This document shows positions 18,614 to 50,097 of a stretch of 64,000 nucleotides of DNA, piece by piece (position 1 is the stretch's first letter; each line of letters begins with the position of its first letter). The notes under the pieces were generated by a model. That model was not told the DNA's origin, searched no databases, and worked only from the letters and a program-made list of their open reading frames with translations. The translations under genes were made by a program, and so were the position numbers. Source of the DNA: Haloprofundus halobius (GTDB lineage Archaea > Halobacteriota > Halobacteria > Halobacteriales > Haloferacaceae); contig NZ_CP083666.1 in assembly GCF_020097835.1 (NCBI RefSeq), forward strand, positions 2,046,001-2,110,000, written 5' to 3'.

Positions 18614-18720
18614 GCACTCACCACCGACCGGGGGACAAAGAAAGTATCAGTCGCTCGCGACGCTCCCGAACCGCGTTCCGGCGGCCGTCGGATACTGGTT
18701 GCGGTCGCGTACTCGACGGG

Positions 18721-20175
18721 TTACGCGCCGTCGGCCGTCGTCTCGTTCGGCGTTTCGGTCGCAGTCTGCGTCGCGGTCTGCGTCGACGTTGCCGTCTCAG
18801 TCTCGGTCGCAGTCTGCGTCGACGTTGCCGTTTCCGTTGCAGTCTCTGTCGAGGTGGCAGTCGACGTTTCGGTCGCAGTCTGTGTCGAGGTAGCCGTTTC
18901 TGTCTCGGTCGCGGTCTGCGTCGACGTTGCCGTCGCGGTCTGCGTCGACGTTGCCGTCGCGGTCTGCGTCGACGTTGCCGTCTCGGTCTGCGTCGACGTT
19001 GCCGTCTCGGTCTGCGTCGAAGTCGATGACGTGCTCGTCTCGGTGGACTTCGAGGAACCGCACGCTTCGACGCTCTCGGTTATCGCCGAGGACTCTTCGT
19101 CTTCGACCGGCACCGACTCGTCGGTGTCGGTTCGCGTCGCCTCGGTGACCACGTAGTACTGACCCTCGGCGTCGCCCAAGTCGAGGTCGACGGTGGTCGA
19201 CTCACCGGGGCCGAGTTCGACGTTCCCGCTCGTCCCCGTCTCCTGGACGGAGTAGCTGTAGGCCACCGCGAACTCGTTGGGGTTCGAGACGGTGAGCTGA
19301 CCGCACTGGTCCGAGCTATCCTGCAGCGGTTCGACCGACGACGACGTAGAAGTCGTCGTCTCGGTCTCGGTCGGCGTCGAAGTCGACGACGTGCTCGTCT
19401 CGGTGGTCTCCGAGGGACCGCAGGCTTCGACGCTCTCGGTTATCGCCGAGGTCTCCTCGTCCTCGACGGGCACCGACTCGCCGGAGTCGGTTCGCGTCGC
19501 CTCGGTGACCACGTAGTACTGGCCCTCGACGTCGCCCAAGTCGAGGTCGATGGTGGTCGACTCGCCGGGTTCGAGTTCGACGTTCCCGCTCGTCCCCGTC
19601 TCCTGAACGGAGTAGCTGTAGGTCACCGCGAACTCGTTGGGGTTCGAGACGGTGAGTTGACCACACTGATCCGAGCTATCCTGTAGCGGTTCGACCGACG
19701 CCGATGCGGAGGTGGTCGTGTCGTCTGCGTCGGAATCGTCCGACTCGTCCGAATCGTCGGCGTCGTCGGAGCCGCCAGCGTCGTTCGAATCGTCAGCGTC
19801 GTCAGAATCGTCAGAATTGTCGGCGTCGTTCGAGCTACCGGCGTCCGAATCGTCGGCGTCGTCGGAACCACCGGCGTCGTTCGAGTCGCCGGCGTCCGAG
19901 CCGCCAGCATCGTCGTCATCGGCGGTAGACGGCGCATCCGTGGTCGTCGTCTCCGACGTCTCGTTCGGCGTCGTCTCGTTCGGCGTCGTCTCGTTGGTGA
20001 CGATTTCGGAGCCGGCAGTCTCGCTGCTCGATTCGTTGGGGGAGTCGTTGACCGGGGACAGTGACCCTGCGTCGAACTGCGACGCGAAGCCGGAACCGAC
20101 GGCTATTGCGCCGAGGGCGACGACGAGGAGCACCACCAAGGGCACATACTGTCGTGTCGAACCAGAGTCGGGCAT
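18721..20175 (-). CDS. Repeat-rich Thr/Asp surface protein with two near-identical 95-residue domains
   Basis: The protein has 484 residues. An N-terminal signal-anchor helix lies at about residues 12-30. A Thr/Glu stretch and an Asp/Ser/Gly low-complexity stretch (about 75-160) follow. Two near-identical domains of about 95 residues come next (about 162-260 and 282-380), each with one Cys near the start (Asp-Gln-Cys-Gly-Gln-Leu) and one at the end (Glu-Ala-Cys-Gly). The tail of about 100 residues is built of Ser-Thr-Gln-Thr-Ala/Glu-Thr-Ala units. There is no C-terminal PGF sorting motif. It is probably an exported, O-glycosylated wall or adhesion protein. I do not recognise the domain. A start 6 codons earlier is possible. 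Confidence 0.75.
   Translation of the reverse strand: MPDSGSTRQYVPLVVLLVVALGAIAVGSGFASQFDAGSLSPVNDSPNESSSETAGSEIVTNETTPNETTPNETSETTTTDAPSTADDDDAGGSDAGDSNDAGGSDDADDSDAGSSNDADNSDDSDDADDSNDAGGSDDADDSDESDDSDADDTTTSASASVEPLQDSSDQCGQLTVSNPNEFAVTYSYSVQETGTSGNVELEPGESTTIDLDLGDVEGQYYVVTEATRTDSGESVPVEDEETSAITESVEACGPSETTETSTSSTSTPTETETTTSTSSSVEPLQDSSDQCGQLTVSNPNEFAVAYSYSVQETGTSGNVELGPGESTTVDLDLGDAEGQYYVVTEATRTDTDESVPVEDEESSAITESVEACGSSKSTETSTSSTSTQTETATSTQTETATSTQTATATSTQTATATSTQTATETETATSTQTATETSTATSTETATETATSTQTATETETATSTQTATQTATETPNETTADGA
18768..19026. repeat. Tandem 24-base repeats in the surface-protein tail
   Basis: A unit close to GTCTGCGTCGACGTTGCCGT recurs about every 24 bases, with cleaner copies at 18905-19020 and more diverged ones before. 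It encodes an eight-residue Ser/Thr/Gln/Ala unit on the minus strand. Arrays like this can change length by slippage. Confidence 0.7.
19022..19695. repeat. Two direct repeats of about 315 bases, 360 bases apart
   Basis: Bases from about 19022 to 19335 and from about 19382 to 19695 match almost base for base. For example, GTGCTCGTCTCGGTGG occurs at 19031 and 19391. The shift is exactly 360 bases, or 120 codons, so the frame is kept. The high identity at third codon positions points to a recent duplication or to gene conversion. Confidence 0.8.
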
Positions 20176-35393: not shown

Positions 35394-37958
35394 TTAGTCC
35401 GCTTTCGCCTGCCAATCGCGAACCCTATCCGCACCCACGCCTTCGACAGTCGCCGCCACGTCGTCGGGGTCGGCGTCCTTCAGCCCGGGCACGTCCGCGA
35501 TGCCGGCTGCTCGCAGTTTCTCCGCCGTCTTCTCGCCGATACCCGAGATGCTCTGCAGCTCGTCGCCGCCGACCTGTTGGGCTTGGTACTCGCGGTAGTT
35601 GCAGATGGGGCAGCCGAGTTCCCACGGTTCGTCGCCGTTGTGGACGACGAGGTGGGGGAGGCCGTGTTCCTCGCACTCCTCGTCGGTGACTTCGATCTCG
35701 CCGCGGCGCGGCAGCGGCAGCGAGTAGTCGCACTCGGGGTAGCGCGTACAGCCGACGAGCCGAGAGCCCGAACGCAGTTGCTTGATAGCCAACTCGCCGC
35801 CGTGCGCTTCGGCGGTTTCACCGCCTTCGCCTCGCGACGTCTCCGACGTCGCGCCCTCTCCACAGTCGGGACACGCCCCGATGACGAGGTCGTCCTGCTC
35901 GTCGGCCTCGTCGGCTTTACACTGCGGACAGCCGTGGACGAACGTCTTGCGCCCGGCGAGCATCTTCACGTGGTGGAGGCCGTGCTCCTCGCACTCGTCT
36001 TCGAGGATGAGCGGCTTGCCCGTCGACGGAAGCGGGAGCGTGTACTCGCAGTCGGGGTAACCGTCGCAGCCGACGAAGTACGAGCCGTACCGGCTCTTTC
36101 TGACGAGCAGGTCCTCGCCGCACTCCGGACACGGCCCGAGTGTCTTGTCCGCCTTCAGCGACTTCTGGAGCTGTTTGCCCAACTCGTCGCCGGACTCCAT
36201 CAGCCCCTCGAAGACGGCTTCGAGCATCTCGCGGGACTCCTCGGTTACGTCCTCGAAGTCCTTCTCGCCGTCGGCGATGGCGAGCATGTCGGATTCGAGT
36301 TGGGCGGTCATCTCCTCGCTCACGATGCGGTCGGCGAACTCCTCCGAGGCGCTGACGACGGCGCGGGCGAGGCGCGTCGGCCGCGGCGGGTCGCTCTCGA
36401 TGTAGTTTCTGTCGTAGAGCTTCTGAATCACGTCGTGGCGGGTCGCCTTCGTCCCGATGCCCATCTTCTCCATCGTCTCGATGAGCCGCGACTGGCCGTA
36501 GCGTCGCGGCGGTTGGGTCTCCTTGGCCTCGAAGCGGGTGTCGGTGACCGAGAGGGTCTCGCCCTCCGAGACGTCGGGGACGAAGCTCTCGGTGTTGTTG
36601 AAGTACGGGTAGACGGCGTGGTAGCCCTCCTTGACGAGTCGTTTCCCGTTGGCCTTCAGCGAGAGCGGCTCGCCGTCGGCGTCGACGTCGGCGACGACGC
36701 GGAGGTGTTCCCACTTTGCTGCCTCGGCGACGGTGGCGAAGAAGCGCCGAACGACGAGTTCGTACACGTCGTACTCGTCCTCGGAGATGTCTGCGGAGGA
36801 GGGGAGTTCGCCCGTTGGGTGGATCGGCGGGTGGTCGGTCGTCTCCTCGTCGCCTTCCGTCGCCGTGAGTTCGTCGAGTTCCAAGAGAGACTCGGCGTCG
36901 TCGCCGAAGCGCCGAGTGCCGACGAACTCCGAGACGAGCTCCTCGGGGTCCAAATCGTCCGGGTAGACGGTGTTGTCCGTCCGGGGGTAGGTGATGTAAC
37001 CGGCCGTGTAGAGGTCCTCGGCGATGCTCATCGCGCGCTGGGCGGAGTAACCGATACTTCCTGCGGCGCGGATGAATTGAGTAGTATTGAACGGCGCGGG
37101 CGGCTTGTCCGTCCGCGTGCGGCGGCGAACCGACTGCACCGTCGCCGACGACGCGGTCTGGATCGTGTCGTAGACCTCGTTCGCGGTCTCCTCGTCCCAG
37201 ACGCGTTCGGCCTCGTTGCCGTCCTCGTCGGGGTAGAAGTACTGCGCCTCGAAGGTCTCCCCCGACCCACTTTTTTCGAGGTCCGCGAACAGTTCCCAGT
37301 AGTTCTCGGGGTCGAACGCGTCGATTTCGCGCTCGCGGTCGACGATGAGTTTCAGCGTCGGCCCCTGCACCCGACCGACGGAGATGAAGTCGTCGCCGAG
37401 TTGGCGCGCCGACAGCGAGAGGAAGCGCGTCAGCGCCGCGCCCCACACGAGGTCGATGATCTGTCGCGCCTCACCGGCGGCCGCGAGGTCGAAGTCCAGA
37501 TCTTCGGGATTCTCGAACGCCTCGGTCACCTCGCGCTTCGTGATAGAGGAGAATCGAACGCGGTCGATCGGAGCCTCTTCGTTGACGTCGCGGACGAGTT
37601 CGTACGCCTCCTTCCCGATGAGTTCGCCCTCGCGGTCGTAGTCGGTGGCGATGGTGACGCGGGAGGCGTGGCGAGCGAGTCGTCGCAGCGCGGCGACGAT
37701 GTTCTCCTGGGTCGGATGTTTGTCGATGGGTGCGTCGATGAGTTCGACGGGTTCGACGTCGCGCCAGTCGTTGTACTCCGGCGGGAAGTCGACGCCGACG
37801 ACGTGCCCCGACAGGCCGATACAGCGCTTGCCACCCCACTTGTAGACGTTCACGCCGTTCATCCGCTCGGCGTCGGCGGACTCGCCGCTGAGGATGTCCG
37901 CGATGCGCCTCGCGGCGTTGTCCTTCTCGGTGATTATCAGTTCCGGCCCCTTACTCAT
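35394..37958 (-). CDS. topA: DNA topoisomerase I (type IA)
   Basis: The protein has 854 residues and relaxes negative supercoils. The Toprim domain lies at about 1-150 (Ile-Ile-Thr-Glu-Lys-Asp-Asn-Ala; Asp-Tyr-Asp-Arg-Glu-Gly-Glu-Leu-Ile). The active-site Tyr sits in Gly-Tyr-Ile-Thr-Tyr-Pro-Arg-Thr-Asp-Asn-Thr. Several C4 zinc modules follow from about residue 605. A helix-hairpin-helix domain (Gly-Ile-Gly-Glu-Lys-Thr-Ala-Glu-Lys-Leu-Arg) ends the protein. Directly after the Cys-Pro-Asp-Cys-Gly knuckle (about 695-700) there is an insert of about 15-20 residues coded by two palindromes (35811-35853). A TATA-like GATTTAGG precedes the ATG at 37958 by about 29 bases. Confidence 0.95.
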   Translation of the reverse strand: MSKGPELIITEKDNAARRIADILSGESADAERMNGVNVYKWGGKRCIGLSGHVVGVDFPPEYNDWRDVEPVELIDAPIDKHPTQENIVAALRRLARHASRVTIATDYDREGELIGKEAYELVRDVNEEAPIDRVRFSSITKREVTEAFENPEDLDFDLAAAGEARQIIDLVWGAALTRFLSLSARQLGDDFISVGRVQGPTLKLIVDREREIDAFDPENYWELFADLEKSGSGETFEAQYFYPDEDGNEAERVWDEETANEVYDTIQTASSATVQSVRRRTRTDKPPAPFNTTQFIRAAGSIGYSAQRAMSIAEDLYTAGYITYPRTDNTVYPDDLDPEELVSEFVGTRRFGDDAESLLELDELTATEGDEETTDHPPIHPTGELPSSADISEDEYDVYELVVRRFFATVAEAAKWEHLRVVADVDADGEPLSLKANGKRLVKEGYHAVYPYFNNTESFVPDVSEGETLSVTDTRFEAKETQPPRRYGQSRLIETMEKMGIGTKATRHDVIQKLYDRNYIESDPPRPTRLARAVVSASEEFADRIVSEEMTAQLESDMLAIADGEKDFEDVTEESREMLEAVFEGLMESGDELGKQLQKSLKADKTLGPCPECGEDLLVRKSRYGSYFVGCDGYPDCEYTLPLPSTGKPLILEDECEEHGLHHVKMLAGRKTFVHGCPQCKADEADEQDDLVIGACPDCGEGATSETSRGEGGETAEAHGGELAIKQLRSGSRLVGCTRYPECDYSLPLPRRGEIEVTDEECEEHGLPHLVVHNGDEPWELGCPICNYREYQAQQVGGDELQSISGIGEKTAEKLRAAGIADVPGLKDADPDDVAATVEGVGADRVRDWQAKAD
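35811..35853. repeat. Two-hairpin palindromic insert inside topA
   Basis: GGCGGT (35811-35816) pairs with ACCGCC (35820-35825) across 3 bases. Seven bases later CGCGACGTC (35833-35841) pairs with GACGTCGCG (35845-35853) across TCC. The element lies in frame between a zinc knuckle and the conserved Gly-Gly-Glu-Leu-Ala-Ile strand and codes for Ala-Thr-Ser-Glu-Thr-Ser-Arg and neighbours. It matches, in order and frame, the element at 49927-49966 in the MTAP gene. Confidence 0.6.
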
Positions 37959-49191: not shown

Positions 49192-50097
49192 TCAGTCGAG
49201 GTAGTCGCCGACGAGCAGGTCGACGCGCTCGCGCGTCTGCTCGGGGATGGCGTCGGCGGGCGTGTTGATGGTACCTTCGAGCGCCGTGTGCGCGCCGCAC
49301 TCGAACTCCTCGGGGAGCGTCCGGATCGCCTCCTCGACGGTACGCTTGATGGCTTCCTGGTTCTTTTCGGCGTTCTCCAGCACCTCTTCGAGCGTCACCT
49401 CGTGGTCCCGTTTCCAGACGTCGTAGTCGGTGACGCCCGCGACGGTGGCGTACGCGATCTCGGCTTCGCGGGCGAGTTTCGCCTCCGGCACCGCCGTCAT
49501 ACCGACGACATCCCATCCCTGCGCGCGGTAGAACTCGCTCTCGGCGCGCGTGGAATACTGCGGTCCCTCGATACAGACGTAGGTGCCGCCCTCCTCTACG
49601 TCGGCGTCGGTGACGGACTCCGCGGCGGCGGTGAGGTGTGAGACGAGTTCGGGGCTGTACGGCTCGGTGATGGGCTGGTGGACGACGACGCCGTCGCCGA
49701 AGAACGTCGACGTGCGGTGTTTCGTGCGGTCGAAGATCTGCCCCGGAACGACGAGCGTCCCCGGTGGAAGCTCTTCCTTCAGGCTGCCGACGGCGTTGGA
49801 GGCGAAGATGTACTCGACGCCCAGTTTCTTGAACGCGTAGATGTTCGCGCGGTACGGCAGGTTCGTCGGCGAGCGGCCGTGTTTCGGCCCATGCCGCGGC
49901 AGGAACGCCACTTCGTGGCCCGTGTCGACGGCGGTGCCGTCTGTCCGAGACGTCTCCGACGTCTCGCTCTCCCCGAACTCGCCGATGGTGACCGGCGCGC
50001 TCGGCTCGCCGTAGGGGGTTTCTATCTCCTCTTCGCGCGTGTTCGACAGCGGCAGCGCCTCGTAGATGCCGCTTCCGCCGATGAAGCCGATGGTCAT
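49192..50097 (-). CDS. S-methyl-5'-thioadenosine phosphorylase
   Basis: The protein has 301 residues and cleaves methylthioadenosine with phosphate for methionine and adenine salvage. Gly-Phe-Ile-Gly-Gly-Ser-Gly-Ile-Tyr (about 4-12), Phe-Leu-Pro-Arg-His-Gly-Pro (about 64-70), Ala-Ser-Asn-Ala-Val-Gly-Ser-Leu, and Glu-Gly-Pro-Gln-Tyr-Ser-Thr-Arg-Ala-Glu (about 180-189) are the family marks. It is longer than usual by an insert of about 15 residues (about 44-59) before the His-Glu-Val-Ala-Phe-Leu-Pro strand, coded by the palindromes at 49927-49966. The ATG at 50097 gives the family start. Confidence 0.92.
   Translation of the reverse strand: MTIGFIGGSGIYEALPLSNTREEEIETPYGEPSAPVTIGEFGESETSETSRTDGTAVDTGHEVAFLPRHGPKHGRSPTNLPYRANIYAFKKLGVEYIFASNAVGSLKEELPPGTLVVPGQIFDRTKHRTSTFFGDGVVVHQPITEPYSPELVSHLTAAAESVTDADVEEGGTYVCIEGPQYSTRAESEFYRAQGWDVVGMTAVPEAKLAREAEIAYATVAGVTDYDVWKRDHEVTLEEVLENAEKNQEAIKRTVEEAIRTLPEEFECGAHTALEGTINTPADAIPEQTRERVDLLVGDYLD
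49927..49966. repeat. Two-hairpin palindromic insert inside the MTAP gene
   Basis: GACGGC (49927-49932) pairs with GCCGTC (49936-49941) across 3 bases. Four bases later CGAGACGTC (49946-49954) pairs with GACGTCTCG (49958-49966) across TCC. The order, core and reading frame (Glu-Thr-Ser-Glu-Thr-Ser-Arg) match the topA element at 35811-35853. The third pair of the long stem is A-T here and C-G there. Confidence 0.6.

Follow-up and report, generated by a model that had tools for sequence, protein, structure and literature searches.

The gene for S-methyl-5'-thioadenosine phosphorylase (MTAP) of Haloprofundus halobius carries a 45-bp insert of two hairpins, which we consider with good confidence to represent one member of a dispersed family of palindromic insertion elements in the Halobacteriales. 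Empty sites in close relatives, unrelated host genes, tandem arrays, intergenic copies, variable stems that remain paired, and a single reading phase and strand were observed; from these sequence comparisons the unit appears to be mobile. The following features were located in the window, i.e. the whole 64-kb stretch of DNA that was analysed.

49192..50097, minus strand: MTAP host gene (TIGR01694, 284.8 bits, above cut-off)
49924..49968, minus strand: 45-bp two-hairpin element in MTAP, encoding SETSETSRTDGTAVD (empty site in four sister species; covariance model score 59.4 bits)
49946..49966, minus strand: hairpin 1 of the MTAP element, CGAGACGTC GGA GACGTCTCG, with a 9-bp stem that holds the TCT codon
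49942..49945, minus strand: unpaired 4-nt spacer GACA between the hairpins (GGGCA in the family consensus when the count starts at the inner 8-bp stem)
49927..49941, minus strand: hairpin 2 of the MTAP element, GACGGC ACC GCCGTC, with a 6-bp stem and an ACC loop

The start of MTAP was placed at the conserved MTIGFIGG, and the ends of the element are uncertain by 1–2 nt. The minus-strand DNA at 49924–49968 is AGCGAGACGTCGGAGACGTCTCGGACAGACGGCACCGCCGTCGAC, and the codons on the coding strand (49968–49924) are AGC GAG ACG TCG GAG ACG TCT CGG ACA GAC GGC ACC GCC GTC GAC. An initial annotation had proposed that some 15 extra residues of MTAP coincide with two palindromes, and that these represent a further copy of an element in topA. 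The insert indeed comprises exactly 45 bp and 15 residues, and the covariance model together with the comparison of sister species identified it as a true insert: all four other Haloprofundus species have an uninterrupted GEFG-DTG at this position, with the insert-free sequence GEFGDTGREVAFLPRHG. A loop with unpaired DNA common to all haloarchaeal MTAPs was not found. Almost all of the 63 haloarchaeal MTAPs fetched together with an organism name lacked the insert, and besides H. halobius only Candidatus Halobonum tyrrellensis had one in that loop, also of 45 bp and with two hairpins, the stems of which differ from those of H. halobius.

Folding of the MTAP element gave both hairpins as drawn, with z = -3.4 for DNA and -3.0 for RNA. 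However, seven double hairpins with 6-bp stems occurred in the GC-rich window versus approximately four expected by chance, and the hairpins alone were therefore not relied on; the MTAP insert is convincing because of homology, empty sites and covariation. In an AlphaFold2 model of MTAP (pLDDT 86.9), the sole segment below 50 was formed by residues 44–57, which correspond to the insert, in the turn linking strands 35–40 and 60–66. Placed in a turn between two β-strands, the insert should be tolerated.

The H. halobius genome contains four copies of the unit, in MTAP, topA, a rhodanese-like gene and leuD, all in one reading phase. The first three were found by BLAST and pattern searches, and leuD was picked up by a covariance model (R1) trained on 15 copies that did not include it. 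The four copies scored 45–59 bits with R1, with the rest of the genome at ≤26 bits; three compositionally matched sister genomes (10.6 Mb) served as background and gave a maximum of 28.4 bits. Among the 24 matches to the pattern GACGTCGGAGACGTC (one mismatch), only those in topA, MTAP and the rhodanese-like gene were true copies, and the others were mostly ordinary-looking codons with no second hairpin.

35394..37958, minus strand: topA, DNA topoisomerase I gene (NF005555, 1001 bits)
35808..35855, minus strand: 48-bp copy in topA, with hairpins at 35833–35853 and 35811–35825 (58.1 bits; empty in the two sister species whose topA was read)

The topA copy sits after a CPDCG zinc-finger motif. 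Copies at this zinc-finger site were seen in several genera, which belong to at least two families (loci L188, L317, L326 and L428, and 35808–35855 of the window). The site in the rhodanese-like gene was empty in three of the four sister species, and H. marisrubri has its own copy there, the second hairpin of which shows paired changes (GACGGG/CCCGTC versus GGTGGC/CCCGCC) with one pair broken. The rhodanese and topA copies lack the GAC ends, a point against the reading as an insertion element. At the rhodanese insertion site of Halegenticoccus soli (L120), a long acidic array that contains several hairpins (e.g. GCGGACGCGGAGTCCGC) was present, as though this site had been hit repeatedly.

From the copies collected, the layout of the unit was AGC, hairpin 1 (17–19 nt), the 5-nt spacer GGGCA, hairpin 2 (15–17 nt) and GAC. 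Its overall size is 45–48 bp, in agreement with clean differences of 45 or 48 bp to empty sites. Among approximately 77 coding copies, hairpins of 19 + 15 nt were present in 48 and of 17 + 17 nt in 18, both giving 45 bp with the 5-nt spacer; intergenic copies, nearly all from the large genus g21, also had 19 + 17 and 19 + 19 nt, lengths that would shift a frame. In some genes the 45-bp units form head-to-tail arrays (e.g. L091). The loop of hairpin 1 was C-GGA-G or C-GAA-G in 42 of 47 copies, and that of hairpin 2 was C-GAA-G in 37 of 47. GAC was the left neighbour of 48 and the right end of 61 of 77 coding copies. In accC, the empty site VED/GEFYF corresponds to VED-15 residues-GEFYF when filled, and at the DNA level GAC/GGC corresponds to GAC-[...GAC]-GGG, with GAC on both sides, which may mean either that 3 bp of the target were duplicated or that GAC is favored as a target.

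The unit was detected in 118 of 170 genomes and 24 of 28 genera of the family Haloferacaceae, with up to 31 copies per genome (covariance model, E ≤ 1e-5), and in 180 of 293 genomes and 63 of 87 genera of the order Halobacteriales (E ≤ 1e-6). In a phylum-wide sample, all 35 genomes with a match belonged to the Halobacteriales, and no match lay outside this order, among the matches listed in both cases. Similar stretches were present on two haloarchaeal megaplasmids, in genes for an NADH:flavin oxidoreductase and a 3-hydroxyacyl-CoA dehydrogenase, in sense orientation and phase 0 relative to the annotated starts. A search of viral contigs with two degenerate patterns revealed no unit.

Several sites are shared between genomes, and these bear on a reading in which old insertions or alleles were passed among haloarchaeal genera by homologous recombination, the element now being immobile and the sister species having lost or replaced theirs. 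The topA copy of H. halobius is nearly identical in sequence and site to that of L317 from another genus, while the sister species lack it, and the accC, topA and metG sites are filled in several genomes or genera. We regard this reading as possible though unlikely: clean empty sites separate three loci within one genus, stems differ among the copies of one genome, and tandem arrays and intergenic copies exist. At some sites at least, spread between genera by homologous exchange is likely, as the near-identical topA copies suggest. More generally, fresh transposition need not account for the sites shared by several genera (topA, accC, a P-type-ATPase-like gene, MTAP), which could stem from homologous exchange or from old insertions followed by losses. 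In the P-type-ATPase-like gene (LSPDEATVRRD-insert), the unit occupies one site in several genera and in another family (L174, L189, L309, L424); its recurrence at one site, like that in topA and accC, would reflect either repeated targeting or gene exchange.

Coding sequences harbor 78 of the 97 placed copies (two of the 78 weakly supported), and 76 of these 78 are in the sense strand and in phase 0. Only 35% of the GAC trinucleotides in genes are in-phase and sense, so that target preference alone fails to explain the single phase; the binomial probability against this expectation was 1.6e-32, a value that is overstated since related copies are not independent. The phase-0 peptide has a mean charge of -3.3 and is the only clearly acidic frame, the other five ranging from -0.1 to +4.6, one of them with frequent stops. 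The simplest filter behind the single phase is purifying selection for a salt-tolerant acidic loop. The encoded peptides themselves are diverse, e.g. SETPEESRADGEAVD, SEARSASGSRTESGD and SVASETQRADGEAVD.

The uniform sense orientation would also be expected of a functional pair of RNA hairpins, selected as mRNA structure e.g. for transcript processing or translational pausing. In line with this, the RNA fold is stable (about -24 kcal/mol), which itself speaks against the reading as an insertion element, and some compensatory changes occur within orthologous inserts. Nevertheless, we judge a selected RNA structure to be improbable, because the orthologous genes of close relatives lack the insert, broken pairs persist, the insert occurs in unrelated host genes, a search of six loci against Rfam gave no match, and the orientation is accounted for by the fact that this frame alone is acidic.

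Stem sequences vary among copies, even within one genome, yet pairing is kept. Standard pairs made up 97.9% of the pair cells in 42 distinct ungapped copies, both sides had changed in 11 of 15 pairs, and 87 double-changed cells were counted versus 16 expected from shuffles, all of these values being inflated because the covariance model favors copies that pair. The initial annotation had noted that the codon in the MTAP stem appears to follow base pairing, and that topA has C and G where MTAP has A and T; both statements proved correct. The third base of codon 7 was complementary to the middle base of codon 2 in 83 of 84 distinct copies, the two bases (codon 2 first) being A-T in 62, C-G in 11, T-A in 7 and G-C in 3. 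At codon 7, 35 of 47 copies had CCT or TCT, although in the window (35 genes, 15,143 codons) CCT accounts for 1.4% of Pro codons and TCT, as anticipated, for only 2.5% of Ser codons. In the loop, codon 12 was GAA in 40 and GAG in 3 copies, although GAG represents 70% of Glu codons. The placement of rare TCT and CCT codons and of GAA where pairing or the loop demands them indicates that DNA structure, and not host codon preference or the peptide, sets these codons. In our reading, the palindrome dictates the codons, and the protein filters only frame and charge.

The further proposal that TCT had been chosen in MTAP to preserve the stem found no clear support: in a simpler reading it arrived with the palindromic element, and orthologous metG inserts include broken pairs. 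In genus g21, metG was matched in 51 genomes, of which 16 have the insert (presence being derived from match length where the genome was not fetched). Among 13 distinct metG inserts, for which protein matches instead of the covariance model guided the choice, 96.4% of the cells pair and 7 of 195 are unpaired; two compensatory double changes were observed, one seen once and one common to six sequences. This pattern would fit slow decay with, now and then, a coupled change that arises through template switching or when another copy replaces the resident one. Judged from these alignments, the hairpin structure may be at most loosely kept in place after insertion, and metG falls short of proving selection on the stem.

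Template switching during replication (quasipalindrome repair) might even have made the hairpins in place, with no mobile unit involved. Near-perfect arms with a different sequence at each locus and paired double changes would be its expected products, and such conversion has been proposed for coding palindromes of nematomorph mitochondria (PMC6649704). As an origin of the unit we hold it to be very improbable, since common descent is required for unrelated loci to share a fixed total length, the AGC, GGGCA and GAC segments and a single phase; it may, however, explain how stems stay paired after insertion. Selection of an acidic disordered linker peptide, with the palindrome as a by-product of GC-rich codons, can practically be dismissed: the peptide is acidic and hydrophilic like halophilic loops, but pairing persists across widely different peptides, GAA and the rare codons TCT and CCT appear where pairing or the loop requires them, the coupling of codons to pairing refutes it, and intergenic copies exist.

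For the preferred reading, a dispersed insertion element, the following route is conceivable. GNA loops closed by G-C stems form extraordinarily stable mini-hairpins in single-stranded DNA (PMC4686876), and such ultra-stable hairpins would point to a single-stranded DNA stage. The unit might spread through this stage with its two C-GNA-G hairpins recognized by shape, would join next to a GAC, and would survive in genes only where an acidic flexible loop results. Counting against this reading, no copy above noise was found near 27 Y1_Tnp transposase loci from seven genomes, and IS200/IS605 ends, considered as a source of the unit, gave no match above noise at the same loci. Y1_Tnp, counted with the RAYT subtype included, was present in seven of eight genomes and absent from one genome with about 15 copies. 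Only tentatively, and leaning slightly against it, do we propose the most far-reaching version: an order-wide mobile element addressed by the shape of its GNA-loop hairpins, the drifting stems of which stay complementary through the action of an enzyme or through template-switch conversion, and which still writes acidic 15-residue loops into essential enzymes with no IS605-type transposase.

The closest parallels are the palindromic elements of Rickettsia (RPE) and Wolbachia, which are dispersed among unrelated protein genes, where they lie in-frame and, as a rule, within unstructured segments (PMC10969869, PMC2996958). Like RPEs, the haloarchaeal unit occurs in several unrelated genes of one genome (MTAP, topA, rhodanese-like, leuD) and is inserted in-frame, with orthologs lacking it; unlike RPEs, which by their description are ~150 bp long with a family-specific sequence, it has 45–48 bp and two hairpins with stems that are free as long as they pair. 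We read it as working like RPEs while representing a separate archaeal family. An archaeal precedent of palindromic repeats with coding potential is cited for Methanocaldococcus jannaschii (Suyama 2005), which belongs to a distant, non-halophilic lineage.

PATEs (palindrome-associated transposable elements) of Haloquadratum are transposase-free, related to the IS605 type, and have palindromes near their ends, with 52-bp end-only forms (PMC3119063). The present unit is likewise haloarchaeal, palindromic and transposase-free, but neither an IS605 end nor a Y1 transposase was found with it at the 27 loci mentioned; the 52-bp PATE form keeps one palindrome copy where the unit has two, and PATEs show no target duplication whereas the unit often has GAC on both sides, be it as a duplication or as a favored target. 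REP sequences mobilized by RAYT are short stem-loops with 6–9-bp stems and tiny loops, sometimes in genes and arrays (PMC3733652). In contrast to these, the unit (consensus AGC...GAC) has no terminal GTAG or CGTC tag, lies mostly in genes in one phase, and showed no link to RAYT. The nematomorph palindromes are also coding inverted repeats, with arm conversion as the proposed upkeep, but they are long, organellar and have no fixed dispersed unit. The unit also differs from MITEs in that its ends, AGC and GAC, are not mutual inverted repeats, the transposon comparison having covered Y1 types.

No earlier description of this haloarchaeal family was found in the open-access literature. Coding palindromic elements were previously known from Rickettsia, Wolbachia and one methanogen, and the new family is present in most sampled genera of the Halobacteriales. 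With both empty and filled sites present in relatives amenable to genetics, element movement, the upkeep of arm pairing and the gain of protein loops become testable. Insertions of 15 residues in haloarchaeal enzymes may be explained by the unit, which is also a warning against adaptive readings of them.

Besides the unit, further repeats were noted. Intergenic repeats of several hundred bases in genus g21 (L272–L291, e.g. L272, L278, L280) are arrays of 2–6 hairpins that include the 45-bp unit and share the flanks CCTCACGCCTCCCCAGCCTCGTC before and CTCGCGCGTG and GCACGCGCCACCGC after the array; Rfam gave no match at four loci searched, and the repeats could be structured RNAs or a larger element invaded by the 45-bp unit. 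A second, mostly intergenic two-hairpin family has the spacer TGATGA and the flanks CGTTC...GAACCACG (L101, L278, L282; L403, L412, L417). Hairpin pairs resembling this family lie within Y1-transposase genes carrying a TGA stop. Finally, the window is repetitive at 18704–19651, where 12-bp steps occur and two copies of a 300-nt segment, 92% identical, lie 360 nt apart.
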